Shown here: piece after piece, positions 4,712 through 55,439 of the stretch | Position numbering within the stretch: position 1 is the first letter of the stretch | Layout of the letters: the number at the start of each line of letters is the position of its first letter | Origin: Sipunculus nudus | Lineage: Eukaryota; Annelida; Sipuncula; Golfingiida; Sipunculidae | Direction: 5' to 3' | Assembly: GCA_026874595.1 (NCBI GenBank) | Contig: CM049318.1 | Coordinates: 41,832,456 to 41,896,455, forward strand | Length of the DNA: 64,000 bases | Translations under genes and position numbers: made by a program | Notes under the pieces: generated by a model | The model's input: the letters and a program-made list of their open reading frames with translations, nothing else | Databases searched by the model: none | Told to the model about the DNA's origin: nothing

Positions 4712-4840
4712 ATTCGGTTTCTTAAACGAACGAGGTTTCAGTCAGCTGCAGTTGCTGTTAACATCACCAGGATATATATAACAGATAGAACATCCGGCAA
4801 AATGCTGCAGGGTACAGTCAATCATCTTCTAAATAATTAA
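4712..4840 (+). other. Possible terminal exon, 42 codons plus stop
   Basis: A good acceptor (CCCCGTGTCTGTTACAG) is followed at once by a frame beginning IRFLKRTRFQSAAVAV, continuing ITRIYITDRTSGKML and closing with TAA at 4838-4840. I recognise no family. It lies about 190 bp after the previous exon-like stretch, on the same strand. Whether the two belong to one gene cannot be settled by eye. Confidence 0.25.
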
Positions 4841-5029
4841 AACGGAGTTGGATTTTTTCTAGACCACGGTTTACCTGCTTCTGTTCTGATTTGACTCTCC
4901 AAATTCGGCAAACGTATAGGTGGTGCGCTCTTATAGGACATGTTTGTTTTATTTTGCGGGATAATGCCCTATTAAGCTTAATAATTAATAATTGAATATT
5001 TCCCTTTAGGTGCCCCTATTTCTTTTGTG

Positions 5030-5440
5030 CTGCAAGGTCCTCCACGCCTGTGACGCTTTTTCAGGAGGCGCCTAGGGGATTTTCACTGGCCTGTTAAGAC
5101 CGTGGCCAGAGCGCATGTCCTGCCAAAAAGGCATTTCCGTGCAATACGCGGTCACGCGAGTCCACTATAATCCCCATTGATCCCCCACAGCCATTGTAAC
5201 GCCTCTGAAGGAATTTCTGTTTTCAAAACGAAGGTTTTTAATCCAAAGACCACATGCGAGGGCTGTTTAGGATGGGCAACAGTGGGCACTGTGTCCAGTG
5301 ATGCGACCACCGTTTGACAATTTTTTTATGGGTTACAGGTATGTTGATTTTTAAACATTCAAATATATATTTTATAAATATCTTTCCATGATAACCATGG
5401 TTTCAAAAGTTCGGCCAAGTCATATGTTTTATGATTTTTT
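5030..5440 (+). repeat. Diverged direct repeat, copy 1 (exon-like, ends in splice donor)
   Basis: This shares blocks with 5880-6160: GACGCTTTTTCAGGAGGCG near the start, AATCCCCA, GAAGGAATTT/TTAAGGAATTT in the middle, AGGTATGTTGATTTTT near the end, and ATCTTTCCATGATAACCAT after it. Part of one reading frame is conserved between the copies (KEF followed by basic residues). Each copy ends in CAG|GTATGT, a consensus 5' splice site. This copy has several stops and looks like a decayed exon. Confidence 0.5.
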
Positions 5441-5879
5441 TCAATAAGCTGCCCCACAATTTAATTATCATTCGGGTTGGGTGGGGGTGGGGTCGGGGGG
5501 GGGGGGGGGGGGGGTCACATATATTTTTTAAGAATTGTTGTCTGTTGGGACGGTGAAACATAAACAAATATCACCAGTACATCTTTAAATTGATAACAAA
5601 CTAAAATCTGTAGTCAACGCGTACAGACCTCCATCAGAATCTCCTTAAATATCAGTCATGTGTTCATGTGTATGCGTTTCATGTGTGAACACTGTCATGC
5701 TTCAGTAACCCGAGTCATCTTGCGAGTGGCAGAACAAATAAAATCGAATGGGTAGCTTCCACACGGGGACAAAGAAATGGTCCTTTGTCATAATGGTTTA
5801 TAAAAAATATATATTGTGGTGATTATTTTTATGAAATGGGCAATTTATATGTCTTTACCTTAACCCCCTACAAATGTTC

Positions 5880-6160
5880 AGCAAAATATTTTTCGCCTGT
5901 CACGCTTTTTCAGGAGGCGACATGTAATCCCCACTTATATCGCCTGTTAAGGAATTTTACTCTGTCAAAAGGAAGCAAAGATTTTAAATTCAAGCGCGGA
6001 ACACATGTCCACATGAACCTCTTAATAGGGAGCACTTTTCCGATTAGTGGACACAAAGAGCTGAGACCCTTCACACAATCACCGTTTTATAGGTTTACAT
6101 GCAGGTATGTTGATTTTTATACATTCAGTATCTTTCCATGATAACCATAATTTGAATTGT
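5880..6160 (+). repeat. Diverged direct repeat, copy 2 (exon-like, ends in splice donor)
   Basis: This is the partner of the copy at 5030-5440. It sits in an open frame of about 100 codons (5836-6141) and is followed by the same CAG|GTATGTTGATTTTT donor-like junction. The upstream CCCCCTACAAATGTTCAG could be an acceptor. I recognise no domain. The pair suggests an ancient exon or gene-segment duplication, or two insertions of one element. Confidence 0.5.
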
Positions 6161-6179
6161 TCGGCCGATTTATGGGTTG

Positions 6180-6908
6180 TTTGAAAAAAGTATGTTGTTT
6201 ATCGGGAAAAAAATTCACACTTAAAAATTCGTACATCCTGTATATGCCTAACGTCTCTTTCCAAAATTAATTTTTTTGTGTGATTTCTAGAATAGAATAA
6301 TTTTACTTTCTATGTTGATATTTTGAGGAATGGTGTTCCTGGAGAATTCTAGCAGAAGTAATCTTTATATCATATAAGTCAAACACATGACAAAAGTTCC
6401 TGCAAAAAGGATTAAAATATGCGTCGTTTAGGTCCTATCAGCTCATTACAAAAATTACATCAGCAAGAGCCGTGGATTTTTCACGGGAGCAGCTAGTCTT
6501 CATTATTATCATATATCCCTCTTCCCTTACAAATAAAAATCTCTGACTCGGCTTATTAATTGCCTTTTCATACAAAGGACAATGACCATTACAAGTCACG
6601 AACCTGTCCTTTAAAAATAAAAGAAAAAAATTTCACATTTTATTAATATATAAATAACTTAGGAAATAGTAACAATAAAGCTACGGAACTTGTACTTGAC
6701 TCTAGAAGTAGACCTATAGAATATTTCATTTTTTATAGATGATTACGTTATAGAGGTTCTGTCACAATATCATTATTTAATGTACACTAACCCACCATAA
6801 ACTTAATCGCAGACATCTAATGTAAATAGCACAGTCAATGAATATACTTTAAAACAGACTTTTCATTTTTAGATAACATTGTTTAGCACATCTATATATG
6901 TACAAAGT
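6180..6908. other. Unassigned AT-rich sequence
   Basis: Left flank of the hAT-like element. I see no gene, RNA or repeat unit here. Confidence 0.5.
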
Positions 6909-6916
6909 CTGTTAAT
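6909..6916. repeat. Target site duplication, left (CTGTTAAT)
   Basis: This 8-bp word precedes CAGGGTTG. It recurs exactly at 21086-21093, just after CAACCCTG. A length of 8 bp is the hallmark of the hAT superfamily. Confidence 0.88.
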
Positions 6917-6995
6917 CAGGGTTGTTGATTTATTTAAAAGAAAAATCGGATTTATTTGATTAAAATAAGATTTTTATAATTAAAATCGTTTTTCT
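6917..6995 (+). repeat. hAT-like terminal and subterminal repeat, left
   Basis: Terminal inverted repeat beginning CAGGGTTG, followed by AT-rich subterminal words (ATTTAAAAG, GATTTATTTGATT, AAAATCG). The mirror end lies at 20995-21085. Confidence 0.8.
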
Positions 6996-7841
6996 TTTTT
7001 TTTATTTTTTTAGATAAAAAAATGATGATCATTCTTTACAGAATGTAAACTATATGAACCAATGATAGTGTAAGCTCCCGAGGCAGTGGAAATCCTACGC
7101 TTCTAAAGAAGCAACTGATTTTCACGCTGCCAGCTTTGACCGTTTATGATACACTTAGACACCAGATGGCGGTTCGTTGTCCGCTGAAGAACACGTATGT
7201 ATGATGTGACAAGCAGCCAACCAGATGCCAATAAACAAACACTCGACAGGCATCCTGGCTCCGCCCATAGCTGCGCTTCAAGTGCCGTTTGAACAGTTAA
7301 CGGTCGAATTTTAATTGCTCCCTCTGCATTCTCGCATCATCGACCGATTCGATTCTGACAGTATGACTGTGTTAGCGTAGCCATGTATATGCTGTCTGCA
7401 GAACTGAAACAGCCAGCGAGGTGTGCACGCAGCCTTTGTTGTTACGTTTCGTTTGAATTACACCTCACCGGCCGGGCATCCTGTGCTCAAGGCCCTAAGC
7501 AAACCACGTCTGCGGCAATTCTCTCCGAGCCTGTTGCCTGTTCAGACGGTTACCGGGACGATGAGCTGTCACTCAAAACGAAATAAACATGATTGGCTCC
7601 GTGTTTTCCTCGCTTGGCCGTGTCTTCAAGCACAAGGTCTGATCTAATTAGACAAAAATACAGTGCTCCCCTCTGGTGTAGCAATTCAGGATACGAGGTC
7701 ATTACAAACAGCGCTTACCATATAGGCAGTAGGCCTATAGTTAAAGCGCTGTGTAAAGAGCGTAATGATAGTGGTCAAGCACAATTTTGGACATTGTGTA
7801 TTGTAATAATTGACAGAATATTCCACTAAAGAAAGGATTTG
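6996..7841. other. hAT-like element interior, left part
   Basis: Moderately GC-richer interior sequence with overlapping open frames of 60-80 codons (7383-7829, +). None shows a transposase motif. These frames overlap in different phases over the same bases, as expected from low stop density rather than coding. Confidence 0.4.
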
Positions 7842-8440
7842 AGCTCAGCTGACAATAAGTCATCTGAGCTATAGTCATGGTCCTTTTCCCTATTGTCCAT
7901 CCGGCCGGCCGTTGACACAACACATTTTGTAACCATTGGATCCAGGAAACCAAAATTTTGCATACAGTTAGATGTCCCCCAAATCTCAAACCATACCAAA
8001 AATTGGGTCACAAGGTCTTAGTTCCCCAAGATATTAAGGAAAATCCTCAGTTTTTTCGTTAAAAAAACCGAATGTTACACTTCAAGTCTGCCTAATATCA
8101 AAACCACTGATCCTTTGTATTAGTTTTAATATACACATATTCTTCTGCTTAAACATAATACACTTTGTATACCCATTTCACATGAAAACTGCTGAAGCTA
8201 GTGACCTTTTTTCAGGGACATAACTTTGTTTAATCAAGATTCAATTATGTACTCAAAATTAGATCTGATTTTTGCCAATATCTTAAGTTTTTGGCATGAA
8301 TAATAAATTCAGAACCTTAAATTTTTGTCCAACTTTGGCCAAGGCACGTTTTTTTTCCTTGTACGCTCTATTAATTTAATTTTCACAGCATGTACACATG
8401 AGGATTTAATCTTTAAAAAACCTTTTTAAAGGAATTGATT
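7842..8440 (-). repeat. Dispersed repeat, AGCTCAGCTGAC-ended family, copy
   Basis: It begins GAGCTCAGCTGACAATAAG and contains ATAGTCATGGTCCTTT, CCGGCCGGCCGTTG, ACAGTTAGATGTCCCCCAAA and AAAACCACTG. The reverse complement matches 55440-55830 in order (GGACATCTAACTGTATGC, AACGGCCGGCCGG/GACGGGCGGCCGG, AAAGGACCATGACTA). So it is the same family in opposite orientation. It lies inside the hAT-like element, left of the LTR retrotransposon, and codes for nothing visible. Confidence 0.75.
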
Positions 8441-8623
8441 GAAAGGAGTAGGTTTTATTCAAGTTTTGAGACATCATGTCAAGTATTATTTACATCAGCC
8501 AGCCCAGTGTAACAGTGGTGTGTAGAGGGTTGATGTTATGAAATGTCTTCACACTCCAGGCAGCTTAGCTTTGCTGAGCTTCAACTAGATCCAGCTTGAC
8601 ATCCCCTCTGCACCCCTCCCGCT

Positions 8624-8661
8624 CCCCCCCCCCCCTCCCCGTACTTTTACTGTGTTTAAGT
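8624..8661. other. C-rich tract before the 5' LTR
   Basis: Poly-C stretch followed by GTACTTTTACTGTGTTTAAGT, abutting the start of the left LTR. No convincing short target duplication is shared with the right end of the LTR element. Confidence 0.5.
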
Positions 8662-9110
8662 TGTTTCAGGTGTCTGTTTAATTGTGCGCAGGAGTGTTAC
8701 ATGTGTTTGTTGACATTCTGATTCGTGTAGCGCAGGCATAGTTCGTTGCTGTGGGATCCTCGCTTGTTGGGCGCTGGCTCGCGTGTGGGGTCTTGAGCGT
8801 AGAGACACAGCGTTCTTTGTTCTAGATGTTTCAGGTCTGTTCCTGTGTGGTTGTATTGTTCTTTGGAGTTCCCATTTCTAGATATATTGGAAGAGAAGCT
8901 ATAAATAGAGGCTGTATTTAGAGCCGGCTGAAAGGAAAAACCAATGAGCTATAAGAGTGTTACCTTCACGTCAGTTTAAGGACCTTCCCGAAAATTGCAG
9001 TGGTGTCAGATATTTAACGGATTTAATACATATTTAATACGGACTGTCTCCATTTAGCCTTTTGATATTACTATTATTACTAAAGAATTGTTGTTGCCTT
9101 TCGGACAACA
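8662..9110 (+). repeat. 5' long terminal repeat of Gmr1-like Ty3/gypsy element
   Basis: It starts TGTTTCAGGTGTC. It shares long near-identical blocks with the 3' LTR, including TTAATTGTGCGCAG, GTTGACATTCTGATTCGTGT, AGCGCAGGCATAGTTCGTTG, GAGACACAGCG and TCTTTGTTCTAGATGTTTC. Past the point where the LINE cut the 3' copy, the match resumes with AATTGCAGTGGTGTCAGA and ATATTTAACGG. Homology fades near 9110. The last 150 bp or so of the right copy have no clear counterpart here, so this LTR end is deleted or the right end is over-extended. Confidence 0.85.
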
Positions 9111-9167
9111 CGTAGGGCTAGGTGTGAAAAAAAGTTTTTCGAGAAAGCCTGATATATTGCTTAAGTC

Positions 9168-9830
9168 ATGCAAGATCTAGTTAGCAAAGGTTTAATTGAA
9201 GAGAGTGAATCGGAAACGTCAACAAATGACAGCCTTGCTACGCAGTTAGTATTTAAAAAGTTAGAAATGCAACATGAGCTAGAATTAAAACAGTTAGCAT
9301 TAGAAAAAGAAAAAGAAACTGAGTTAAAACGACTGGAGTTAGAAAGACTTAAAATAGAACATGGTCTACATGCTGCCCCAAATCACAGTTTTGATGCTAC
9401 TAAACACATGACTTGTCCCACCTTTTCAAGAAAAAGAGGTTGATAAATATTTCTTACACTTTGAATGGGTAGCTGAAAATTTAATTTAGCCTACGGAAAA
9501 TTGGACTATGCTATTAAAAAGTGTATTGACTGGAAAGGCCAGAGAAATTTACGCCGCTGCTGACTATGACCAGGTTAAACGGTTAATCCTAAAAGGATAT
9601 GAGTTAGTTCCGGAGGCTTACCGCCAGAAATTCAGAAACTGGGAAAACAGACCTACGTAGAATTTGCTAGGACTAAAGAGCAGTTGTTTGATCGCTGGTG
9701 TAGTTCTAAAAATGTAATGAAAGATTATGACAATATCTGCCAGTTGATTTTGCTTGAAAAATTTAAGCGCTGCATTAACGCAGATGTTAAAACTTTTCTT
9801 GATGAGAAATTATATCTATTGCTGTTTGCT
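9168..9830 (+). pseudogene. gag-like region (SCAN-related capsid), frameshifted
   Basis: The start MQDLVSKGLIEES is followed by a charged, heptad-like helix at about residues 25-70 (KKLEMQHELELKQLALEKEK, then ELKRLELERLK), as expected for a gag coiled coil. The frame breaks near 9430. It resumes in another frame as KEVDKYFLHFEWVAENL, has a stop at about 9486, then reads LTGKAREIYAA. A further shift gives YELVPEAYRQKFRNWE and finally FARTKEQLFDRWC. The EAYRQKF region resembles the SCAN-type capsid fold, which is known to derive from Gmr1-like gag. It would form the particle shell in a live element. At least two frameshifts and a stop make it non-functional. Confidence 0.8.
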
Positions 9831-9831
9831 G

Positions 9832-10285
9832 TCAGAGAATCATTTCAAGAGTCTTTGGGTTTCAGTCCCCTTGAACAAGTTTTGGGACACTCAGTTCAAG
9901 GTCAATTAAAACTGCTTAAAGAAAAACTGTGTGAAAATCCTGATTCTCTAAGTTTATTGCAGTATGTCTCAGACTTTCGCACTAAACTACTTAATACTTG
10001 TGTAGTAGCAAAGTCTAATCTAAAATCTACACAAAGTAAAATGAAAACAAAGTATGACTAGCACACTGTAAGTAGGACTTTGAGAATGGTGAAAATATCC
10101 TTGCCTTACTACCAATCCCTGCAATCTGCAAGCTAGGTATTTTGGTCCTTACATTGTTGACAAGAAAGTCAGTATTTTAAATTACATAATGTTAACACCA
10201 GATAGGTGTAAGAAAATACAACTGTGCCATGTTAACATGTTTCAACCATGTTATGACAAAAATAGCACATCAGATGTTGTACATA
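9832..10285 (+). pseudogene. Integrase C-terminal remnant, upstream of RT
   Basis: The frame runs AVRESFQESLGFSPLEQVLG, then LSLLQYVSDFRTKLLN, then SKMKTKYD and a stop at 10059-10061. These are the familiar end of a retroelement integrase core. In shifted frames, the next 200 bp give a GPY/F-like module (ILNYIM, then CKKIQLCHVNMFQPCYD). The N-terminal zinc finger and the DDE core are missing. The remnant is fused to the end of gag, so about 2 kb (protease plus most of integrase) appears deleted. Its position before reverse transcriptase is the diagnostic point. Confidence 0.72.
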
Positions 10286-10489
10286 AAGTTACTGCTGTTA
10301 ATTGTGTAAAAACTGGCCCTGGCCCAGTTAAAGTAGATACTGATTGTAAGTATGATGTAGACATTTAGTGTGGAACAGTACCACTAAACATTCAGACTTG
10401 CTTGACAACCTGGATGCCAAACTGTCACACCTTACCGACAACAAAAACAAGACCACAAGAACCTGCTGCGGAATTATGAACATTTGTTT

Positions 10490-11640
10490 AGTGACATTCC
10501 AACATATTGTGCCATGACGTCGATGTTTGCGAAGTAAGCGCAGTCAAGCAGCATCCTTATAGACTGAATCTAGAAAAGCAAAAGTATCAACAAGATGAAG
10601 TTCAATATTTGCTGGACAATGATTTTTTTTAACCTAGTAACAGAAACTGGAGTTCACCATGTATTCTTGTGCCAAAACCTGATGGAAGTTACCGTATGTG
10701 CACAGATTATAAAAAACTGAGTATCGATGATTGGAGTCGGTGGCTCCAGATATGTTTCCATGTTTGACTTGCTAAAAGGATTCTGGCAAGTTCCGCTGAC
10801 AGAACGAGCAAAAGAGGTGTCCGCATTTGCGGCGCCAAATGGACTGTACCAGTATAAAGTTATGCCGTTTGGCATGAAGAACTCGCCAACCACGTTCCAG
10901 CGCCTGATCCGTATGGTTGTCAAGGACATTCAGGGCTGCGACGCATATAGTGATGACCTCGCCGTGTACAGCGACACCTGAAAGAAACATCTACAAATTC
11001 TTCGCGACCTCTTTGAAAGACTCAGTGAAGCACTTCTGACGGTCAACTTAGTCAAATCTGAGTTTTGTCATGCACAAGTAACATTTTTGGGTCATATTGT
11101 AGGGCAGGGTCAAGTAACACTTGTTGATGCTAAAATAATTTTTAGTGCTATTTCTGCATTCCCTAGACTAGAAAACAAAAAGCAAATAATCCGTTTTCTT
11201 GGTATGGTTGGATACTACAGAAAGATTTGTCCAAATGTTTCTGCTGTAGCTGAACCTTTAACTAATTTGTTAAAGAAGAAACAAAAGTTTGTATGCAATG
11301 TTCAGTGTGAAAATGCATTTCAGAATTTGAAAGCAATTTTGCAAAATTTACTAGTTTTGGCAGCTCAAGACTTTTCTGTACCTTTTAAATTAGCTGTAGA
11401 CGCTTGTGATACTGCTGCTGGTGCTGTGTTGTTACATGAAGGTAGTGATGGCATATATAATCCGATTTGTTATTTTTTCTTCAAGAAAGTGTAAATGCAA
11501 ACCAAACAAAGAACTCCACTTTTGAAAAAGAATGTTTGGATTTGAATTTGGCATTGCAATATTTTGAAGTTTATGTTACTTCATCAGTCAAGCCTATCAT
11601 TGTCTTCAGTGTGACCGCAAAAAGACTTTCTCTTTTCTTA
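10490..11640 (+). pseudogene. Reverse transcriptase and RNase H region, multiply broken
   Basis: The N-terminal linker and fingers read in pieces: KQKYQQDEVQYLLDNDFF, a stop, then NWSSPCILVPKPDGSYRMC. After a frameshift come FDLLKGFWQVPLTERAKEV and QYKVMPFGMKNSPTTFQRL. The catalytic box is YSDD (the usual YxDD with S) at about 10950. A stop follows at 10979. Then come TFLGHIVGQGQV, RFLGMVGYYRKICPN and the tether. RNase H starts at FKLAVDACDTAAGAVLLHEG (catalytic D visible) and is frameshifted near 11490 before NSTFEKECLDLNLALQYFEV. The region runs straight into the polypurine tract. Confidence 0.88.
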
Positions 11641-11643
11641 CAG

Positions 11644-11652
11644 CAGGGGGAG
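11644..11652 (+). other. Polypurine tract (plus-strand primer site)
   Basis: CAGGGGGAG sits immediately before the 3' LTR start TGTTACAGG at 11653. This is the expected place for the plus-strand priming site. Confidence 0.7.
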
Positions 11653-11962
11653 TGTTACAGGTTTCTTTTTAATTGTGCGCAGAAGTGTTACATGTGTCTG
11701 TTGACATTCTGATTCGTGTAGCGCAGGCATAGTTCGTTGCTGTTGGAGCCTCGCTTGTTGGACGCTGGCTCGCGTGTTGGGTCTGGAGCGTAGAGACACA
11801 GCGCTCTTTGTTCTAGATGTTTCGGGACTGTTCATGTGCGTGTGTATTATTCTACGGAAATTTTCCATTTCTGGAATTTTCGGGTGAGAAGCTATAATTT
11901 AGGGGCTGTGTAGAACCAGCAGAAAGGAAAATACCAGCGAGCACTAAGAGTGTTACCTTCTC
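11653..11962 (+). repeat. 3' LTR, first part (5' of LINE insertion)
   Basis: Matches 8662-8968 of the left LTR along its whole length with scattered substitutions and small indels. It stops at GAGTGTTACCTTCTC, where the LINE inserted. The remainder continues at 19714. Confidence 0.88.
11948..11962. repeat. LINE target site duplication, left
   Basis: GAGTGTTACCTTCTC is repeated exactly at 19699-19713. One or two extra A residues could belong to it but merge with the poly-A tail. Confidence 0.92.
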
Positions 11963-12195
11963 GAGACTTCAGGTTTGCCTCCGGTGTTGGTAGGCAGCAC
12001 TCTTCACAGCTCTTAGTGTTTCATTGGATTATACCGCGAATAAGAACAAGTACGGATACCTAAAACACATTCGGATATTAATCGTGATCCTGGATTTTAT
12101 TATTTACTGCCCAATCGTGTATTATCGCAGTGCAAGACTATATACCTACAACGTTTAACTCCTCAAGACTGCAGCCCACGGGGGAGACTGCTAAC

Positions 12196-12837
12196 ATGGC
12201 TTCTCAGGACCCCGCCTTGGAGCCAGTATCAGTCACGCCGCTGTTCATACGTGGGACTCAGTTACCACAGACACCTGATAACTATATATCCACTTCTGGA
12301 TATATTCGAAAATTCTGCCGGACTTGGCAGCATGGACGGGGCACAGAGAATACCGGGCCTGTGGAGGCTCTACCCAACCTCAGAGCAGGCACGTGCACAC
12401 CTTCTTGTCAATGGTTTGCAGGTACGTGGCATTACTGTGTCACTACTTCCAGAGAACCCCTTTACTGCGAGGTATGAGGGCAACGAACAAGTAAGTGTTA
12501 CAAAACTTATTGTAAGTGACATTCCATTGTCATACAGTAATGTGGACATAATGAAAGCCCTTAAAAAACTAGGTTGTAAAGCCCGATCGGAGCTACTGAA
12601 TGAACGCGATCGGGACACCAACGTAAAGCTTACGCGCTGGAAAACGGGCCGACGTTTTGTGTATATTGAAACTCCCACCACGCCAATTGCCAAAACGGTG
12701 TCAATTGGTTTATTCAAAGTAAGTTTATACCATAAAGAACAAAAAGAGGCCCAAAAAAGGAAGAATGCAGTCTGTGGAAACTGCTTTGAAAGCGGCTACT
12801 ACAAAAGCGAATGCAAAAACAATACAAGTGACCCATG
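12196..12837 (+). pseudogene. LINE ORF1, N-terminal and middle part, frameshifted
   Basis: The likely start is MASQDPALEPVSV at 12196. The frame shifts near 12330 and continues as SMDGAQRIPGLWRLYPTSEQ. It then reads through an RRM-like region (VTKLIVSDIPLSYSNVDIM, ALKKLGCKARSELL, TGRRFVYIETPTTPI) to the first zinc knuckle, CGNCFESGYYKSEC. The knuckle should be CX2CX4HX4C, but the histidine is replaced by tyrosine. The frame is then cut by a foreign repeat at about 12838. In an active LINE this protein coats the RNA and acts as a chaperone. Confidence 0.82.
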
Positions 12838-13268
12838 GGTCATGACGCTCAGCTGCCAAGCATGACCTGTGACATCATGGACTGAGATTCACAACTTCCA
12901 GTCAAATTTTGAAGAACCAATTTGCCAGTTTGTTGAAAATTTTCTATGACAACAGAAATATATATCACCTATGTCTGGTTAAAACACAGTGAATTGATGG
13001 TCTGAGGAAAATGCATGATTGTTAAGCTATCAGGAACTATTCCAACAGCTTACTTGCAACCTGTCAGTCTCAAAGGAACACCACAAAGGGAAAATATAAG
13101 ATCAAAATATATAGCAAAAATCAAGGAAATACATGCAAGAATTATTGAGAAACAGGTGCTTCTGTATGAATTTTTATTCAATACAAGCCAACTGTACTGC
13201 ACTTTTATAAATGATGGTAATATTTATTCACAAAATATTTGACCCAATCCTTTACAAGATTACATAAA

Positions 13269-13466
13269 CAGGGGCGGATCCAGGATTTAGGAAAAGGGGG
13301 GGGGGGTCCAACCCAGGAGGACTTATGAAAATCCTAAAAAAAAGGTCATCACGTCTGGAAAAGGGGGGGTCCAGGCCGCAAAATTACGTCTAAAACCCCT
13401 TAAAAAAAGGTTGCTTCGGGTGAAAAAGGGGGGGTCCGGACCCCCCCCCCCCTGGATCCGCTTCTG
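13269..13466. mobile_element. 198-bp MITE with GGATCC-containing terminal inverted repeats
   Basis: Left end CAGGGGCGGATCCAGG, right end CCTGGATCCGCTTCTG (inverted). It is flanked by ATAAA at 13264-13268 and 13467-13471. The interior repeats a poly-G/GGTCC module three times (GGGGGGTCC followed by AAAACC or AAATCC spacers). It is too small to code and would depend on a transposase elsewhere. The superfamily is not obvious. Related ends occur at 3317-3512 and 50754-50865. Confidence 0.8.
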
Positions 13467-14479
13467 ATAAATATACATCCAACTGCATTCACTTTAACTG
13501 TTCTTGAGATAATATGATCAAAAGAAATTAAAAGATGGTTGCCTGGTGGCCATGTTGGACTTCTGACAAGTCTGAAATCAGACAACAAACATTCTCTAAA
13601 TCGGACCAAACATTAAAGAAAAATTACTGAAACTGCACTAAAGAAAGAATTTCTAAGGTGGCTAACTGGCAGACATTATGGATTTCTGACAAGTATGACA
13701 TTTGATATCCCACATTCTCCAATAAGAGACCAAACTTGGGCAAATTATCCAGTTATGAATGCCCAAAATAATTCAAAAGGCATGTCCAGGCCCTCATATC
13801 AGATTTATAGATATGCAATTGTTAAAAGTGTAAGTCCAATATTTTTTTATTATCACTCTGCTTTTCAATGGGGTCAGCAGGGTAGGTAAACTGCCAAACC
13901 TGAAAGAAAAGAAATGCAGAAAGCATGACTAAGAGTCTTGAAATAAAACAAAAAGCCATTCTAAATCAAGGTACACATCCACATATTATGAGAACAAACA
14001 CTTGCTTTTATATGTGGTGATATATATTAAAATATTCAGATATCTAGGAAACCAAGTTTATTGCTAGGACTTCATAAAATAAACTGCAAAATGTTCCCAT
14101 CATCTTATAAATCAATAGCTAAACCTTAATACTATACTCTCATAGTCTTAATGCCTGGCTGAAGCATTCTGACAACAGTGTTTTTGTTATGAAGTAACGA
14201 GGTACTTATCACTGAGCCTTATCACTTAATAGGCTGATAAAAAAGGGAGTCATATGTCACCAGTGTCACTCACAATTACAGCCACACAGGGAGATGTACC
14301 AGCTGGAGTGGGATGGTTATATATACAAGAAAAATAGAGATGGTCTATAAAATAAGTAATTGTGAACATCCCTGACCTATGACCTTGGCCTTTTGCCCAT
14401 ATATCAACTGGATTCTTTCTAAATGATGGGTAACTACTTACCACTTAAATCTGGTGTAATTACTTGACAACCAATGGGT

Positions 14480-15235
14480 GAATAACTTTGACCTGCAACC
14501 TTTAACCTGCTGACCAGCTGACCCCAAAATCAATAAGTTATTTATTCAAGCAAAAAGACCATTAATATGAAGTTTGAGTCAAACTGAGTGATGCATAGAT
14601 GTGGCATATGTGAAAGACTGAAGGTTTGGGTTGAACAGTTACACTTGAAATATGCTCACAAGCATTTAGAACAATTAAATATTGTGACCTTGACCTTTGA
14701 CTTTTTGACCTCAACATCAATAGGCTTCTTCCCTTATTGGTAGGTAAGCCATATATGACAGATGGAAGGTACAGTTTGAAAAGTTTGCCTGAAAATGACT
14801 CCACGCAAGAAGTGGGTGCTGTGAACTTGACCTTTGACCTCAAAATCAACAGGTCTTTTCCCCTGTTGGCAGAGAAGCGATATCAGTGCTGGAAGGTTTG
14901 GAATGGAAAGTCTAGCTTGAAATGTGTCCACAACCTTTTCAAAGAAGTGGATCCTGTGACCCTGACCTTTGACCTTATGACCTCAAAATCTATAGGATTC
15001 TTCTCCAACTTAGTAGGTGAGCTATATGTGAAATATCAAAGATTTGGGATGAAAGGGTTGGCTTAAAATGCATCCACAGGCTTTTCAAAGAAGAGGCTCC
15101 TGTGACCTTGACCTTTGACCTTCTGACCTAAAAAAAATTATGGTTCTTCCCCTGTTGGTAGGTGAGCTGTATTTGAAAGATGGAAGGTTTGGGATGAAAA
15201 TTTTGTCTCAAAGAGTTATTTCTGGGGGTGCAAAC
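14480..15235 (+). repeat. Tandem array, about 135-145-bp unit, with DR1-like TGACCTTTGACC
   Basis: Each unit reads GTGACC(T/C)TGACCTTTGACC, then a CTCAAAATC-like word, then CCCCTGTTGGTAGGTGAGC, then GATGGAAGGTTTGGGATG, then TTTTCAAAGAAG. The core motif is at about 14695, 14827, 14962 and 15106. A more diverged unit lies upstream near 14490. TGACCTTTGACC is the reverse of the AGGTCA-type direct repeat with one spacer that many nuclear receptors bind. The frames open here (about 60-110 codons) are repeat artefacts. Confidence 0.85.
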
Positions 15236-15466
15236 ACACCCCATAACTTCGAGAATATAGGTCGCAGTGACCTAATTTCAGGTTTGCAAGGAGATCTTTT
15301 TATAACCTTCAAGACTGCATAGGGTTCATGGCCCTAGCACCTACGGTTACGATTTGTGCCCTGCTAACGGACGGACGGCCGGCCGGACGGCCGGACGGAA
15401 GGACGACGGACAAAGACCCATGCATCGCTTTAGCCCAGCATGACTGAAAGTCAGCTGAGCTAATAA
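15236..15466 (+). repeat. Dispersed AGCTCAGCTGA-ended family, copy in LINE insert
   Basis: Contains AGGTCGCAGTGACCTAATTT, CAGGTTTGCAAGGAGA, GATTTGTGCCCTGCTAACGG, a GGACGG/CCGG-rich stretch, and finally GTCAGCTGAGCTAAT. The same order recurs near 24030-24600 and 55190-55380. Confidence 0.75.
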
Positions 15467-15468
15467 AA

Positions 15469-15839
15469 TGCTGAGTTTGCCGTGAGGAGGGGCACCGTGC
15501 CGGTGACTCGGCCTGCACACTACAAGCACTTGATACAACGAAGCTGACCCATAACAGTACTGTTACGCCCGTGGCTGTACACACAGAAATGACACAGGGG
15601 CAGAGCTGAACAGCCAACAGACGAGGAAACCAGAGCTGGCCGCCCCTCGCGGAAGGCCTAACAAAGCTCTAGGACGAGACGCAAGCGACTACTCGCGGGG
15701 ATCGTCAAATGACAGAGTGAAATGTGAGACAACCACAACAAACAAAAAGCGGCGAGCATCACAATCTCCGCCCGCTGCCGCACAAGAACAGAAACGGTAC
15801 AATAATAACAGCGGCCAGAGCGACGATGGTGACACTTGA
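15469..15839 (+). pseudogene. LINE ORF1, C-terminal part (second zinc knuckle and basic tail)
   Basis: Coding resumes right after the foreign insert with a second knuckle, whose first cysteine is at 15469. An in-frame TGA follows, then VCREEGHRAGDSAC. After a frameshift near 15600, a basic, low-complexity tail reads PRGRPNKALGRDASDYSRG, then NKKRRASQSPPAAAQEQKR. It ends at TGA 15837-15839, about 90 bp before ORF2. The shared reading logic on both sides of 12838-15468 shows that the intervening 2.6 kb is an insertion. Confidence 0.7.
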
Positions 15840-15928
15840 CACACGTTTTGACAGTTACCGCTGACTTCTTGGAATCAGATTTAGGAACTGGACTTGGACT
15901 ATGAATAATTAAACTATGATTTTATGAA

Positions 15929-18900
15929 ATGGCGCCTCTGAAAGTTCTAACGCTAAACTGCAACGGTTTGCGAAATAGATTGAAAAGACAAGGAATTTTT
16001 AGAAAACTGAAAATGGATAATGTGCATGTCGCATGTTTATAGGAAACCTTCTTAAACAAGCATTTACTGAAATATGCTGAAAGAGAACTCAATGGTAAAT
16101 TTTTGCATGTAGAAGGTACGAATAACAGCAAAGGAATTGCTAAATATCTACACAAAGCACTCTTAGACGAACTTTCAGATATGAAAACGGTAACTGAACG
16201 GGAACGTTTACTAGGGATAAGTTTTACCTACAAAAAAATACTTATTGTCTCTTTAATATATATGCTCCATGCAATGCCACAGCGAAAATTGAATTTTTAG
16301 ACAGGGTTAAATCCGTTATCAACAATACAACCACAAAAGGGGAATATGATCATGTGATTGTTGTAGGGGACTTCAACACTGTGTTATGTAACGATCTAGA
16401 TATTATTTTTGGTAATCCCCATGCTAAACGAGAATTAGCTGCTTTCAATGAATTCATAACTGATATTTCTATAAAAGATACTTGGCGCAAAAAACATTAA
16501 CACACTAAAGAATTTTCATGGTCTAGAAACAACCCTTTCGTAGCTCGCAGATTGGATTATGTTCTAATGGATGATGAGCTTACAAATTGTACTAAATCCG
16601 TGGGAATTATTAGATACCCCTTTTCGGATCATAAAGCAGTCCTGGCTGAAATAGACATTGACGGGGCACCTCGAGGCCCGTCGTATTGGAAATTCAATAA
16701 GTCATTCCTATACACAAAGAGTATGTCAACATGATTACCAAATTATTAGATGAGTTCCGGGACGGATATAAAGGTTTTCGGGATAATCCACAATAATCCA
16801 AAAAGAAAAAATAGAAAAAAAAACAAACCTTGTGAATAAATTACACAATACTGAGTGTCTTTTGGCTAATAATCCAAGCGATCCCGACCTAATTCGACAG
16901 GAAACAAATTTTCGTAAAGAACTGGACTTAATGGCTTCCTAAGAAGCCCGCAGTGCTCAAATCCGCTCCAAAGCTGCGTGGAGAGAGAAGGGTGAGAAAA
17001 TACTAAATATTTTCTCAGATTAAAAAAATCTCATGCGTCTAGAAAACTTATTTGAAGTCTAAAGACAACAGATGTCCGTATTATATCCGAGCAAAATGAC
17101 TTAATAGAGTAACAGAGCAATTATTTTAGTACTATATATAAGAAAAGGGAGGCTAGAAATCTTAATAAAACATTTGAAAATGTTGTTAAGGATATAGATA
17201 CGCCTAAATTGGATATCACTGATCGTGAGCAATGTGAGAGCAAAATTACCACAGATGAACTAAGCAGAAGACTTCATAAAATGAAAAATAACAGTAGTCC
17301 GGGACTAGACGGTCTGACTACAGAATTTTATAAATTCTTCTGGAGCAAAATAAAACACATTTTACAAAAGGTTTATGATCATGCATTTGTAAAAGGTGAA
17401 CTATCAGCGACTCAGAAACGCGGTATTATTACTCTAATACATAAAGGTAAGGACCTACCGGAGGACGTGCTTACTAACTGGCGCCCTATAACACTAACCA
17501 ATACCGATTACAAAATATTAGCGAAATAACTTGCTCTCAGGCTTGAAAGCATTTTACCAAAAATAATAAACTCAGACCAGGTGGGTTTTATGAAGGGCCG
17601 AAGTATTGCATCAGCCATCAGAATGATTGATGATATTAACTTATACTTAAATGATGATGATAAACCCGGGGCTCTTGTTGCGGTAGATTTTAGAAAAGCA
17701 TTTGATACTCTTTCCAAACAATTTATGATCAAGTCATTTCAGCACTTTGGTTTCGGAACGGACTTTGTAAAATGGCTAATAATTTTAAATGAGGATGCTA
17801 ATAATTGTATACAACATAATGGCTGGTTCTCAAAAAGTTTTCACATTAGAAAGAGGAGTAAGACAAAGATGTCCCCTCTCTCCGCTTACGTTTATAGTTG
17901 CAGTGGAATTGTTGGCTTGTAAAATACGGCAAAATAAAACCATAAAAGGAATCGACCTCCCACAAAGGCTATATGCGAGAAACAATATAAAAATCCTACA
18001 ATACGCCGACGACACCACCCTTTTCCTGCAAGACAAGAAGGACATCACAGAATCCTTAATTTTACTCAATGAGTTTGAAAGAATTGCAGGATTGCAAATA
18101 AATTTTTCCAAAACTGAAGCTTTATGGCTGGTTAGAAATAAGAAATGTCAAGACAGTTGCCGGTCTGAAGTGGCTACGTCACCCAGACAACGAAATAAAA
18201 ATACTTGGAGTCAGATTTAGTAACTGCAAATCAGCCTCTAACATCCAATCAAATTGGACAAGCAGAATGGAGAAAGCAATAACGGAGATTAAAAAATGGG
18301 AGAGACGCAATCTCTCTATCATGGGCAAAATACTCATCGCTAAAACATTTGTTATGTCGCAGTTTATATATTTAATGCAGTCATTATCAATGCCTGAAAA
18401 CATCGCCATCGAAAATATCATATTGAAAAAACGTTACAACAATAAAAGAGCTTTCGAAAAAGTGAAAAGAAACACGATGACTCTTGATTATGATTATGGA
18501 GGTCTAAAAGTCATTGATGTGAAAGTTATGCAGAAAGCGCTATTAATTAAATGGGTCAAATTGTTTACTGATCAATCTGAGGAAACCTGGAAAAATATTC
18601 CGGAATACTATTTCAATAAACTTGGTAGAAATAGAAGCGTTTTACAAGCAAACACCTTACCGAAAAATTTTTAAAATTTACATGTAATTAAAAACGAATT
18701 TTACCGTAACGTATTAAAAACGTGGCTTTTTACGCAAAAACGAGGGCCTGCAGACCCAGCTTCACCGGTGCTATGGAACAACACCGCCGTTACATATGGA
18801 GACATTCTTTTCTTTAACGACTGGGTACAGGGAGAGCTTATCTACTTCTCTGATATAGTACAAAATGGTCTTATCATGAGTTTTGAAGACGTGGTCAGAA

Positions 18901-19586
18901 AACTAGGCAACAGTCCAGCAAGAATGCTGGAGTATAATGTAGTACAGACGGCAGTTAAAAATTTTATACGCAGGAATGGTTCCCCAGTCTTCGAGCCACA
19001 AGATATTCAGTTTCAAAGCGTGCCAATTACAGCGCTTAATGTGAAATCTATTCGTAATTTAATAAAGCAGGATAACATCGTGACTCCCTACTCTGAAAAG
19101 TTCTGGCTAAATAAATATCCAAGTAGACGCCTAACATCAGCGGACTGGTATACAGCAAAGAACTGTTTTAAAGAGGTCAGGTTACAACTACTCCACTGGA
19201 AAATACTTCATAAAATATTTCCCACCAATGTGTTGCTACATAAAATGGGTATAAAGGACTCTATTAAATGTAGTTTTTGTGACGAAACAGACTACATTGA
19301 ACACTTTTTCTATTCATGTGGAAAACTTAAACATTTTTGGTTTGAAGTAGAAAGCAAAATTTCGGTAATAGCTGGCAAATGTGTCAAATTATCGGAAGCT
19401 GACGTAATACTCGGATACAAATGTGAAAATAATAGTGAGACCACATCAAAAGTCAATCACATTATTCTCAAAGTAAAAATGTGTATCAGTAAATTTAAAT
19501 ATGGCAATACAGGCAACCTGAAATTTGTCTTCGAAGTAGAAATGGAAAATAAAATTAAAACTTATTGTACATTGTACCACATGTAG
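15929..19586 (+). pseudogene. LINE ORF2: endonuclease, reverse transcriptase and C-terminal Cys domain, decayed
   Basis: It starts MAPLKVLTLNCNGLRNRLKR, the usual first strand of an apurinic-type endonuclease. A stop follows at 16040-16042 and a frameshift near 16250. The other endonuclease landmarks read in pieces: VVGDFNT, FSWSRNN, RRLDYVL and YPFSDHKAVLA. Reverse transcriptase begins about 17200 (KMKNNSSPGLDGLTTEF, NWRPITLTNTDYKILAK then a stop). It continues DQVGFMKGRS, VAVDFRKAFDTL, a frameshift near 17870, GVRQRCPLSP and the catalytic YADD (18002-18013). The C-terminal zinc motif CSFCDETDYIEHFFYSC lies near 19270-19320. At least six stops or shifts make it inactive. Confidence 0.9.
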
Positions 19587-19682
19587 TATCCTACGGTCCT
19601 AGGTTCTAGCTGTCGGAACCAGATCGGATCTATTTTGTAAAAGGCAGCTTTGAGCAAAAAACTGTGTAAAAAAAAAACTACC

Positions 19683-19698
19683 AAAAAAAAAAAAAAAA
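19683..19698 (+). other. LINE poly-A tail
   Basis: An uninterrupted A run follows ACTACC and directly precedes the right copy of the target duplication. Confidence 0.9.
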
Positions 19699-19713
19699 GA
19701 GTGTTACCTTCTC
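19699..19713. repeat. LINE target site duplication, right
   Basis: GAGTGTTACCTTCTC, identical to 11948-11962. Confidence 0.92.
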
Positions 19714-20012
19714 AGTTTTCGGACCTTACGGATAATTGCAGTGGTGTCAGATATTTAACGGACTTAATACAGATTTAATATGGACTGTCTCCAGTTTGCC
19801 TTTAGTTTATTACTATTTACCCGGATTATTGGTTTTAAAGGACTCTTGTTGAGCTGTGACAGTGGTGGTATCCAGAATCAAAGCCTAGGACCGGGACACT
19901 CTGGTACTGTGCATGTTTAATGTTGTACTGTGTAATTGTTTTTATTTAGTTTATTGTAATGTTAGGATTGTTCTCAGAATAAATTATAATCATTTGTTAA
20001 CAAAAAACCAAT
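19714..20012 (+). repeat. 3' LTR, second part (3' of LINE insertion)
   Basis: The LTR resumes with AGTTTTCGGACCTTACGG, then AATTGCAGTGGTGTCAGA, then TATTTAACGGACTTAATAC, matching 8969-9110 of the left LTR. Beyond about 19861 the left copy offers no match. An AATAAA signal (CAGAATAAATTATAATC) and a possible terminal TTAACA occur at 19975-20006. A TGGTATCC-like word at 19868 would suit a primer site, so part of this end may not be LTR. Confidence 0.7.
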
Positions 20013-20994
20013 GACTTCTTTATTCATTCTCTTTGACATTTCACGCTGCCTGGTTTTACAGAATCTGATTTTTTTTTATCTCCGTAACAAAATTTGTGCT
20101 GATCACGATTACGTGATGTGTTGTTAATACGTTTCGTAACAAAGTACACATTTATTTGTGCCCATTGTGGTACATTCAATAAAGAATTTGGGCACACATT
20201 CCTGGAATTTAATCTTTAAACGGAATTTAGAATTATTAAATACATTCTCACATTTTTTTTTCAATTATATCCTCTGGGATAATGTAGTCCAAAAAGTGCC
20301 ATCTAGTTTTTGTGTTGCATATATTTAGTATTTGATTATAACAAAATAGCAAGGCCATTTTCTCTTAGCTTTTCAAATGCTAATATGTAAAAAAAATTAG
20401 AAGAAAGTTCATGTTGCATTTGCTAAAAGTTTACAAAATTCAGCTGAGTGCTGTGACCCATGGGTCCATTGTTTTAATTTTATTATTCATTTGCTTTATA
20501 GTGATGGACAGTTTATAGAATCCCGTATGATAATATGCATACACCCATTGTGCATTTCTGAACAGTTGCAATTACCTAGCAACATATCCATTTTTAAAAT
20601 ACTTACTTATCGATGGGAAATCCACTTACTAAATAACATCACATGTATGATTTTAACTGATGTTGCACAAACAAGTAAAGTTCAGCTTAATGTAAAAGTA
20701 TTTGATAGGTGTACACCCTTGAACATTTGAATATTCTCCTTCAAAAGAGTTTATAAATTCAGCCTACAGAAAGTTATTTATTTTCTATTTTTATTTATTT
20801 GGAAAGAGCTGATTATTTATTGGTTTTGCATTTATATAGATGAAAATAAAAGCAGTGCTGTTAAATCAGACTTCAAGAGGGTGTAACATTCTTTTAAAGT
20901 GCCTCTAAAGCTCTAAGTATAAAAATGAAAATGTTTGAATTGAAAATAATTGAAGAAAAGAAAAATAAAAAAAAAGAGAAAAACTCATTTTTTT
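20013..20994. other. hAT-like element interior, right part
   Basis: AT-rich sequence with one open stretch of 79 codons (20491-20730, +) that shows no transposase motif. No other feature is visible. Confidence 0.4.
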
Positions 20995-21085
20995 TATAAA
21001 AGTTGATTTAAATTAGTGATTTTAAAAAAATCAAGTGATTTTAATCGGCGATTTAAATCAACGTGATTTAAATAAAACAACCCTG
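20995..21085 (-). repeat. hAT-like terminal and subterminal repeat, right
   Basis: Inverted counterpart of the left end. GTTGATTTAAATTAGTG, GATTTTAATCGGCG and GATTTAAATCAACG words precede the terminal AACAACCCTG. The terminal 10 bases match the left end. A 3-nt indel then separates the two arms. Confidence 0.8.
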
Positions 21086-21093
21086 CTGTTAAT
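21086..21093. repeat. Target site duplication, right (CTGTTAAT)
   Basis: Exact copy of 6909-6916, immediately outside the CAGGGTTG terminus. Confidence 0.88.
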
Positions 21094-21653: not shown

Positions 21654-23990
21654 CTGAAAGAATGAGAGCGACAAAAGTTGTTAGCTTATACTTGTTTATG
21701 ACTATGACTTTCAAATCCTAACTGAAAAGTCCGCTCAACCTGGTATAAGGAACCCAATGGAGGCTGGTTATAGGCCAGGCGGTATGCGGATGACGGGCTT
21801 TATACACCGGTAACTGTAGGGGCGCGGGAGGTATTTTAATAATGAAACCTGCTGGGCTCGTACAATAAGGGAAACACGTCTTTATGACGATATTGGGTCG
21901 CTGACTACAGACCAGAGAACGTCAAGGACGGCTGAGTGTCTCATTATTACTGTGGAACTGATTGTTATTGCTGCTTTACTGGTGCAGGGCTGAATATCTC
22001 AGGTCGTGCTGCAGGCAAGATAGCTAAATAATACATTTACCTAGCACCTACAAGGCTCCGGTTACGTCACTTAGTCATATTTGACTTAAAGTGACCACTA
22101 AAAACACAACCTTACCATGTAATAATTAATGATAGATATGATAACTGAAATGAGATTTCAGTTATGGGGATCCTCTCACAGAAAAAAAAATTAGCAAGGG
22201 TATATTAGGATGTTTGCAAAATAAACAGAGAAATTGAAGGAAAATAAGCAAATTTCTAACCAATAATGGCTATTAAACTAATCTGGAGCAAAAATAAATA
22301 ATGTAGGAGTGCTCCTATAAGGAAATTGCTAAGATTTCAACTCCTGTTGTTTTCTGGAGCCTGCAATGCTGTCATGTTTATCTTTTGTCACATGACCCTG
22401 TCCTTGACCTTATTGATATGAGAAAAGTTGTCCAAGGATTATTGTCCCAAATAAAATTATAGTGATTATTGTTTGGATAACTTCCATCAGCAAATCTGTT
22501 AAACACTTAAAAGATATAGCTAAATACCTATAAAGGACTTATTGAAGCCATATATTTCCATTAACTCTAAATCATTATTCATGATTTAAGATGTTTTGGA
22601 ATAGATTTATTAGCAATAAATTACTTTGGTACACCAGAGGTCAGGTCACAGGTCAGGTCATGGGTGACAAGAGTTCATGCCTCAACAACATGGCTGTGTC
22701 AGTGACGGGCTTCTGCTCTTCTCTTCATGATAAAATGTTACATCATATCAAACATAACCAGGGCACTCCACCTGTATGTCCACTGAGAAATAAAGGATTT
22801 ATATAGTGAACATAGTTTAAGCTACATCTTATTCTTAATGACTCTTCTATTCGTTCCTCTGATATATCAGAAGGACCGCTACAATATTGCATAAGAACAT
22901 ATTCAAGACTGAGTATGGCCCGGGTCCCCCGGTGTGTAATTATCAGCCTTGCACCAAGGCAAGGTTTACAGTATACAAATTATAATATTCCAGACAGCCC
23001 TGATCTGTGTGCTCTGATAAACAGAATTGGGAGGGCATGTCCGCTAACACTCAAATATCTTCGATGGGCTCATTTGAACAAAATTACATTAAAACCAAGT
23101 CCTGCTTTACTTGCCTTCGAGACAGGTTACCATGGGTCAAAACATTTCAGTTTTAATGCCGCTGTGAATAACGCTGATGAGTAAATTTAATCAAACTTCG
23201 GAATTACCCTTGTATTCGTCTTTGTGTTTTTTTTAAACAATTAATAAAATTATATATTTTTCTACAAGTCTTCCGTGTTTTGTAATCCAATTGTCATTTA
23301 AAGACCTTACATAACATTTGCTAAATATAATCCAGACCCTTATTGCAAAACATTTGGTCCTGTTAGTTCACAAGTTCAATTAAAAAGCACTTTGCCTGTT
23401 CATTAAGCAGAATGTACCGTTGGGTTTGATGATCTGAGGTGATTACAGACCATAAAAAAATTCTGACAGGAGCTCCTCCCAGTTAACCCAATGGAATAAT
23501 TACATCTATTCTTTCGTTATGATTTATTAATTACACATATATTTTTACCAAGAAAGCCCATTAGGCATAATGCTTTTTTTCTTTGGGCTCCTCTTACATT
23601 ATTTTCTATTAAAATCTTTTAATGTTTTATATCAGTGCCAATCTACTTTTATCTGATAATACATAATTCTGCTTATGCGCCAAATAGACAATAAAAAACA
23701 GTCGAGACTTAACTTCTTGAATGTTATATAGGACACTCGAGGTAATTTGTCAATAAAGTGAATATAACATTGTGGTACACTGCTGTTACAGATAACGAAC
23801 CCTCTTTAAAACCCGTGTTTACCGGCGGTTTATTGACTTCTGTTATATATTTCATACAAGGTAATAATCTGAATCTTTAAGGCTAATAAAAGACAATTCA
23901 TTATGCGTGGTCTGAATATTGATCACAAAAAAAGCAATGACCAACACTTTTCACATGGCCCTTTTATTTCATTTACGAAGTTTCTAGATC
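21654..23990. other. Unassigned sequence
   Basis: No named feature apart from the half-site cluster. Open stretches of 71 and 89 codons (22591-22806 and 22915-23184, +) have no recognisable motif, no clear splice ends and no repeat partner in the window. Confidence 0.4.
22638..22661 (+). promoter_or_regulatory. Cluster of four AGGTCA-type half-sites
   Basis: AGGTCAGGTCAC followed at once by AGGTCAGGTCAT: the 12-bp word AGGTCAGGTCAC is nearly perfectly doubled. Half-sites of this type bind nuclear receptors, but function here is unknown. It may be part of a decayed repeat. Confidence 0.4.
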
Positions 23991-32997: not shown

Positions 32998-34535
32998 GTT
33001 ACGTGTACGGTATAAAGAGTATCATGGCTAACAGATATACATGTACGGTATAGTCTCATGGCTAACAGAGAAACGTGTACGGTATAAAGAGTATCATGGC
33101 TAACAGATATACGTGTACGGTATAGTCTCATTGCTAACAGAGATACGTGTACGGTAGAAAGAGTATCATGACAAACACATACGTGTACGGTATAGTTTCA
33201 TGGCTAACAGAGATACGTGTACGGTATAAAGAGTACCATGGCTAACAGAGATACGTGTACGGTATAGTTTTATGGCTAACAGAGATACGTGTACGGTAAA
33301 AAGAGTATCATGGCTAACAGATATACGTCTACGGTATAGTTTTATGGCTAACAGAGATACGTGTACGGTATAAAGAGTATCATGGCTAACAGATATACGT
33401 GTACGGTATAGTCTCATTGCTAACAGAGATACGTGTACGGTAGAAAGAGTATCATGACAAACACATACGTGTACGGTATAGTTTCATGGCTAACAGAGAT
33501 ACGTGTATGGTATAAAGAGTATCATGGCTAACAGAGATACGTGTACGGTATAGTTTTATGGCTAACAGAGATACGTGTACGGTAAAAAGAGTATCATGGC
33601 TAACAGATATACGTCTACGGTATAGTCTCATGGCTAACAGAGATATGTGTACGGTATAAAGAGTATCATGGCTAAAAGATATACGTGAACGGTATAGTCT
33701 CATTGCTAACAGAGATACGTGTACGGTAGAAAGAGTATCATGGCAAACACATACGTGTACGGTATAGTTTCATGGCTAACAGAGATACGTGTACGGTATA
33801 AAGAGTATCATGGCTAACAGAGATACGTGTACGGTATTGTCTCATTGCTAACAGAGATGCGGGTACGGTATAAAGAGCCTCGTAGATTACAGAGATACGT
33901 GTACGGTATAGTTCCATGGCTAACAGAGATACGTGTACGGTATAAAGAGTATCATGGCTAACAGATATACGTGTACGGTATAGTCTCATTGCTAACAGAG
34001 ATGCGTGTACGGTATAAAGAGTATCATGGCTAACAGAGATACGTGTATGGTATAAAGAGTATCATTGCTAACAGAGATACGTGTACGGTATAGTCTTATG
34101 GCTAACAGATATACGTTCACGGTAAAAAGAGTATCTTGGCTAACAGAGATACGTGTACGGTATAAAGAGAATCATGGCTGACAGAGATACTTGTACGGTA
34201 TAGTCTCATGGCTAACAGAGATACGTGTACGGTATAAAGAGTATCATGGCTTACAGAGATACGTGTACGATATTGTCTCATTGCTAACAGAGATACGTGT
34301 ACGGCATAAAGAGTATCATGGCTAACAGAGATACGTGTACGATATTGTCTCATTGCTAACAGAGATACGTGTACGGTAGGAAGAGTGTCATGGCAAACAC
34401 ATACGTGTACGGTATAGTCTCATTGCTAACATAGATACGTGTTCGGTTTAGAGTATCATGGCTAACAGAGATACGTGTACGGTATAGTCTCATTGCTAAC
34501 AGAGATTCATGTACGGTATCAAGAGTATATACATA
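32998..34535. repeat. Satellite array with nested 36/72/286-bp periodicity
   Basis: The basic unit is ACGTGTACGGTATA followed by either AAGAGTATCATGGCTAACAG (38-bp form) or GTCTCATGGCTAACAGAGAT (34-bp form). The two alternate to give a 72-bp dimer. A marked variant (GGTAGAAAGAGTATCATG then ACAAACACAT) recurs at 33151, 33437 and 33723, exactly 286 bp apart, making a four-dimer higher-order unit. Minus-strand frames of 65-83 codons rich in LYRTRISVSHDTLYTVHVS arise because 72 is divisible by three. They break each 286 bp because 286 is not. Confidence 0.95.
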
Positions 34536-54689: not shown

Positions 54690-55070
54690 AACAGGACAGA
54701 CGGACAGACAGGGTGATTACCATAGGGCATCCACTTACTCAAGTGGGGCCCTAATAACACACAAAGTTTCAGGACACTAGATGAAACCTCAGTTGCAAAT
54801 ATTATATTATCAATATGATTCGGCAGTCTCAAAATAAAGGAAAAAACTCGTTAAAACAGAAAAAAATACAATTGGCGCTACCCATCTTTAAGAACTGGAA
54901 ATACAAGTCACAAGCAATAAACACACCAGGTTAAAGGACACTAGATTAAACCGCAGTTAAGAAACGGACTCAATTGGTATCATTTGAGGGCCTCAAAAAA
55001 CAGAGGAAAAAATCGTAAAAACTAGAAAAAATGCAATTGGTGCCATCAATTTTCGGGAACCGACAACTTA
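54690..55070. repeat. Degenerate direct repeats with CACTAGAT and AATTGG(C/T)GC words
   Basis: Two diverged units (about 54740-54890 and 54910-55050) share CA(G)GTTTCAGGACACTAGAT- or GGTTAAAGGACACTAGATT-like starts, CAGAAAAAAATACAATTGG- or CTAGAAAAAATGCAATTGG-like middles, and (C/G)GCTACCATC- or TGCCATCA-like ends. They appear related in layout to the arrays on either side. Confidence 0.5.
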
Positions 55071-55179
55071 GTAATAGTAAACATTCAAGCCAAGATTCAG
55101 AGCAATACATGCATTAATTGTAAAGATACTTGGGGTTTTGTATCAAATTTTTAATGATTCTGGGAGATATTTACGATCC

Positions 55180-55380: not shown

Positions 55381-55439
55381 TCTCTATAGCTTCAACAATT
55401 CTAAGGTAAAGTGAGTGAACATTTTTTTCTGATTTTTTA

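Follow-up and report, generated by a model that had tools for sequence, protein, structure and literature searches.

The window analysed here, a stretch of 64,000 nucleotides from the annelid Sipunculus nudus (GenBank assembly GCA_026874595.1, contig CM049318.1; contig C13 of the searched genome), carries a nest of transposable elements of about 14 kb at positions 6909-21093. Seven elements make up the nest, which is six deep. A short hAT-type element encloses a Helentron-type element, here called X, which is interrupted by a Gmr1-like long terminal repeat (LTR) element. The latter contains an L1-type long interspersed nuclear element (LINE), in which a second Helentron-type element, HINE2, carries a miniature inverted-repeat transposable element (MITE). 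The seventh element, Y, lies in the left arm of the hAT. The nest is very probably the product of successive independent transpositions, with the hAT and X arriving ready-joined as a chimera. All kinds of elements found here are already known and the nesting itself is ordinary, as nested insertions are frequent in repeat-rich genomes. Literature searches, none of them aimed at a hAT carrying a Helentron, revealed nothing about this particular locus. The features are as follows.

6909..6916, no strand: left hAT target duplication CTGTTAAT (base-by-base check)
6917..21085, no strand: hAT-type element, layer 1 (terminal inverted repeats, 8-bp duplication; relatives with and without X)
7071..7764, no strand: Y, a Mutator-like element (MULE)-like non-autonomous element in the left hAT arm (9-bp duplication)
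7842..20472, plus strand: X, a Helentron-type (HINE) element, layer 2 (subterminal repeats, 3' palindrome; recurs with the hAT)
8662..20141, plus strand: Gmr1-like LTR element, layer 3 (AAGT duplication; empty sites in X)
11963..19698, plus strand: L1-type LINE, layer 4, within the 3' LTR (duplication; empty sites)
12824..15462, minus strand: HINE2, a Helentron-type element, layer 5, in open reading frame 1 (ORF1) of the LINE (ends; empty sites)
13269..13466, no strand: MITE, layer 6, within HINE2 (ATAAA at 13264-13268 and 13467-13471)
21086..21093, no strand: right hAT target duplication CTGTTAAT (base-by-base check)

A first-pass annotation, made by a model from the letters of the window, had described a five-level nest at these coordinates. 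Checked base by base, the coordinates and the 8-bp (hAT), 15-bp (LINE) and ATAAA (MITE) duplications are correct. All five of its layers are present, but the count was too low: Y was missed, and the region of X, a separate Helentron-type element, had been taken for part of the hAT. For each layer, further copies of the host element elsewhere in this genome (1.43 Gb in 153 contigs) were examined for absence of the insert, referred to below as an empty site. Exact duplications lie at the borders of five of the seven elements; for the layers noted earlier, they measure 8 bp (hAT), 4 bp (LTR element), at least 15 bp (LINE) and 5 bp (MITE). At the local base composition, an 8-bp match arises by chance with a probability of 2.5e-5 and a 15-bp match with one of 2.3e-9. 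For 4 bp (0.005) and 5 bp (0.001) the duplications are weak by themselves, and the support for these layers therefore leans on family copies and empty sites. Ends, duplications, empty sites and the recurring hAT/X border are read directly from the assembly; the enzymes used are inferred.

The outermost element has the features of a hAT, namely an 8-bp target duplication (CTGTTAAT on both sides) and short terminal inverted repeats, CAGGGTTGTT, starting with CAGGG, which we take to be a hallmark of hAT ends. Near-exact 8-bp repeats also flank relatives at three other loci (L043, L044 and L045). Only 826 of the 14,169 bases between the duplications are the hAT's own (6917-7061, 7774-7841 and 20473-21085), which is not enough length for a hAT transposase.

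X occupies 7842-8657 and 20146-20472, between the hAT and the LTR element. It starts at 7842 with AGCTCAGCTGAC and its complementary partner and ends near 20472 with CAGCTGAG, followed by the palindrome GACCCATGGGTC. HINE2 is built alike: its 5' end carries TAGCTCAGCTGACT and a partner, followed by an ACGG microsatellite and 146-bp tandem units, and its 3' end carries CAGCTGAGC followed by GACCCATGGGTC. Both elements thus show the subterminal inverted repeats and the 3' palindrome of HINE elements. Cg_HINE of the Pacific oyster has a 5' subterminal repeat with a complementary partner, a 4-base microsatellite, tandem units, a 3' subterminal repeat and a palindrome (PMC7492417). The likeness to Cg_HINE and Pearl extends to tandem units near 140-180 bp, a T-rich target and the lack of a target duplication (PMC7492417). 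The subterminal match, however, is 9 bases in X and HINE2 (9-10 in the comparison with Cg_HINE), below the 11-12 bases given in that source (PMC7492417). X also differs in riding within a hAT, and the likeness is one of layout. Relatives of the left part of X were found at six fetched loci and at one more place in the window. No hAT arm was found in the sequences holding them, which makes X a member of a family of its own. The window also contains, at 54980-55815, a sequence related to both X and HINE2 that includes tandem units.

The evidence that the hAT and X arrived together comes from other hAT copies. A query in which the two hAT arms were fused, with Y and X left out, gave 42 matches (40 of 145 candidates scored), two of which are the window itself. 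Of the others, 36 cover sequence to the right of the X site. Nine of these run through it and are therefore empty, and 27 begin at query 220-226, precisely the X border. Four further copies stop on the left side, at query 212-222. At least 18 of the 27 border-breaking copies have a match to X on the same strand no more than 3.5 kb upstream. This count is a lower bound, since the best 40 of 2357 X candidates were scored and L044 carries X without appearing among them. When read end to end, L043, L044 and L045 each show X enclosed between hAT ends, and neither Y nor the LTR element is present in them. At L041 and L047, X continues into the right hAT arm, and L040, L048 and L049 are without X. 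The recurrence of the hAT/X border and the end-to-end chimeras with near-exact 8-bp flanks of their own indicate that hAT and X spread as one unit. We conclude that X joined a hAT before the insertion at the present locus, and that the resulting chimera transposed as a hAT. Two observations speak against this. The flanking 8-bp repeats match at only 7 (L043), 7 (L044) and 6 (L045) of 8 positions. Furthermore, L046 breaks at the X border and shows the right hAT arm alone, with no X in the preceding 1.3 kb.

The break without visible X at L046 would suit an alternative in which the X site is a hot spot entered repeatedly by Helentron-type elements, so that the shared border is a convergence. The border is T-rich, and T-rich sites are favoured by HINE elements according to two studies (PMC4067079, PMC7492417). 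Yet the same X sequence runs in the same orientation into the right hAT arm in L041, L043, L044, L045 and L047, which makes this alternative improbable. It is still less probable that X was inserted locally after the arrival of the hAT, so that every layer, X included, would be a local event. The nine hAT copies without X at the site fit such a course of events, but the common border break in 27 of 36 copies, the upstream X matches in at least 18 of these and the three copies holding X within hAT ends all stand against it. X probably entered a hAT only once.

It is slightly more likely than not that hAT and X form a two-class composite transposon that outgrew its parent, with a cut-and-paste transposon carrying the ends of a rolling-circle element and multiplying them; 27 of the 36 other hAT copies examined break at the X site. 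What looks like a nest may in part have been inherited already assembled. A chimera at the family level looks like two local insertions when a single locus is considered, so that counting each interruption as a local event gives too many events here.

Y is an element of 694 bases, flanked by the 9-bp duplication ATGATAGTG at 7062-7070 and 7765-7773. All 12 other hAT matches covering its site are uninterrupted. A second copy, at L010, is about 90% identical and has a 9-bp duplication of its own, CATGATAAC. The terminal inverted repeats are only about 7 bases long, and Y may belong to the MULE family. Its entry into the hAT arm may have come before or after that of any other inner layer. The targets of the two copies, CATGATAAC and ATGATAGTG, are alike, and the L010 copy holds an extra insert, about 580 bases long and with inverted ends.

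Inside X, the LTR element is bordered by AAGT at 8658-8661 and 20142-20145, a duplication absent from the first-pass annotation. Its 5' LTR extends from 8662 to about 9078, where its end is lost, the internal part runs up to 11652, and the 3' LTR is represented by 11653-11962 plus 19714-20141. The LTR termini are TGTTAC ... GTAACA. From 39 other places with this LTR, 22 were fetched. In 21 of them the LTR is 725-750 bases long (some ends extrapolated), and in one it is 564. The assignment to Gmr1, already made in the first-pass annotation, is borne out by a relative at L019, which has the integrase domains between gag and the reverse transcriptase (RT). This is the Gmr1 order, and for the window copy the evidence is indirect. 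An integrase upstream of the RT is what defines Gmr1 (PMC8220671, PMC6238403), and a SCAN-like gag is noted for Gmr elements (PMC4131045). A piece of gag in the window (9603-10061) resembles SCAN with E 3.7e-05 and 23.9 bits, below the Pfam cut-off of 27. Two gag pieces of L019 matched no family in the domain search. Unlike the Gmr1 clade of Ty3/Gypsy elements, the window copy no longer has an integrase core, and its 5' LTR has lost its end; the label is based on domain order. The lengths of X copies vary near the LTR site. In a genome search with the flanks of X joined at query 230, 25 of 36 matches to the left side of X cross the empty site, five of them as far as query 367-380.

The LINE is flanked by GAGTGTTACCTTCTC at 11948-11962 and 19699-19713, a duplication of 15 bp, or 17 if two A beside the poly-A are counted. 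Human LINE-1 ORF2p is the best match of the LINE's RT pieces among solved structures (E 2.1e-08 and 1.2e-15), compared with E 0.02 and 0.0019 for R2. The match to an apurinic-type endonuclease is weak (18 bits against a cut-off of 27.4), and the ORF1 piece matched no family in the domain search. The RT, the poly-A end and the long target duplication resemble those of L1-clade LINEs; the subclade may be Tx1. The LINE site is empty in all 39 other LTR matches, which pass it in one piece (best 40 of 1735 candidates scored), is uninterrupted in the 22 fetched loci, and is likewise empty in the 5' LTR of the same element. None of 39 other LINE matches extends past the poly-A at query 499; those ending before that point provide no test of the junction. 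One LINE copy, L038, has its end within gag of this LTR family, which might suggest that the LINE is specific for this family and that the fourth layer was targeted rather than a matter of chance. The site at L038 is a different place in the LTR element, though, and L038 is the one exception among the 3' flanks read for 27 of the 39 other LINE copies: the remaining 26 show no match to the LTR element (20 of the flanks are no longer than 133 bases, and several of the copies duplicate one another). On these flanks and the poly-A stops, a site-specific LINE was rejected as highly improbable. Three LINE copies on contig C15, near 31.87, 31.94 and 32.00 Mb, share nearly the same 3' flank, which points to a local duplication that included their surroundings.

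The "composite repeat" reported in LINE ORF1 is indeed an insertion there and can now be identified as HINE2. A search across its site gave 15 matches. The two halves of the window copy account for two of these, and a third match falls short of the site; the remaining 12 of 12 LINE copies, 86-95% identical, are empty. At one locus, L042, the empty site rejoins to the base without any duplication, in line with the absence of duplications and the T-rich sites of HINE elements. The other border of HINE2 is equally sharp, as 39 of 39 other matches stop at 15461-15474 (best 40 of 1301 candidates scored). The MITE, which may be of the hAT5 kind, is absent from 40 of 40 scored matches to HINE2 (best 40 of 355 candidates, with HINE2 minus the MITE as query).

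These empty sites uphold the insertion order first proposed, that is, hAT, LTR element, LINE, composite repeat and MITE. The flanks rejoin when the inserts are removed, as host copies run through the LINE, HINE2, MITE, LTR and Y sites. Recurrence of the same junctions as a unit elsewhere in the genome, which had been named as the outcome that would contradict such an order, was found for the hAT/X border, not seen at the first pass, and not for the LTR, LINE, HINE2 and MITE junctions. A spread of all layers as one unit was accordingly rejected for these four junctions and accepted for hAT/X.

Several points weigh against the succession of insertions or its details. An exact 4-bp duplication was found at just 8 of 22 LTR loci, two of them being ATAT in AT-rich sequence; at L015 and L018, two of the 22, none is expected because these are 3' LTRs of longer elements. 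At the LTR site, 20 of the 25 crossing X matches pass by 17-21 bases only, and the next piece, where listed, starts about 60-75 bases further on. The remaining 11 of the 36 break off at query 152-236, at the site or short of it, and provide no test of it. Among the sequences at hand, a 5-bp duplication accompanies just 2 of the 7 other paired MITE copies. The loci at hand contain no close relative of the MITE; matches are 71-78% identical over 146-222 bases, with shorter pieces reaching 93%. The youth of the MITE is read from the nesting. The 5' arm of HINE2 diverges by 4-6%, not by the 1-2% seen over 378 bases in 40 scored matches. Finally, the two LTRs differ at 49 of 411 sites (11.9%; Kimura two-parameter distance 0.130). 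This comparison, proposed at the first pass, could be made, but unrelated LTR copies differ by 12-15%, and a pair as divergent as unrelated copies dates the LTR layer poorly.

The LINE diverges from seven relatives by about 4-8%. For the three layers having both kinds of information, sequence divergence agrees with the nesting order, and the locus thereby sets relative dating against itself. The layers described earlier as "dated" have a relative order and rough divergences, not calibrated dates. In its 40 best matches, spread over many contigs, HINE2 is 98-99% identical over 378 bases, marking a recent Helentron-type expansion in this genome. Together with the hAT+Helentron chimera, this young burst is the part of the nest most useful to specialists.

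The history of the nest was very probably as follows. Before the locus existed, X would have become inserted in a short non-autonomous hAT, giving a chimera that multiplied by hAT transposition. One hAT+X copy would then have been inserted here with an 8-bp duplication, and Y would have entered the hAT arm at some time. The Gmr1-like element would have integrated in X (4 bp), after which the 3' LTR would have received the L1-type LINE by retrotransposition (at least 15 bp). HINE2, a young element, would have followed in LINE ORF1 without duplication, and lastly the MITE in HINE2 (5 bp). That a misassembly piled up unrelated repeats is extremely improbable: the junctions are those of the assembly, but the borders coincide with element ends, exact duplications stand there in five of seven elements, and the flanks of HINE2 join up to the base in the empty site that was sampled.

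Software for the chronology of nested insertions reportedly includes REANNOTATE, LTRtype and TRANScendence. As in these, relative order was read from which element interrupts which; unlike in these, a single locus was followed by hand, with empty-site counts for each layer.

In a search for a further layer outside the hAT, the left flank of the nest (4800-6908) gave no match in 216 kb comprising the LTR-neighbour loci and part of the window. The right flank has one match in the same 216 kb, to L024: positions 22141-22455, just beyond the nest, are 88% identical to one end of that locus and represent a dispersed repeat of unknown kind. Further along the window, 33000-34528 is a 1.5-kb tandem array of 72-base units with higher-order periods of 214 and 286.

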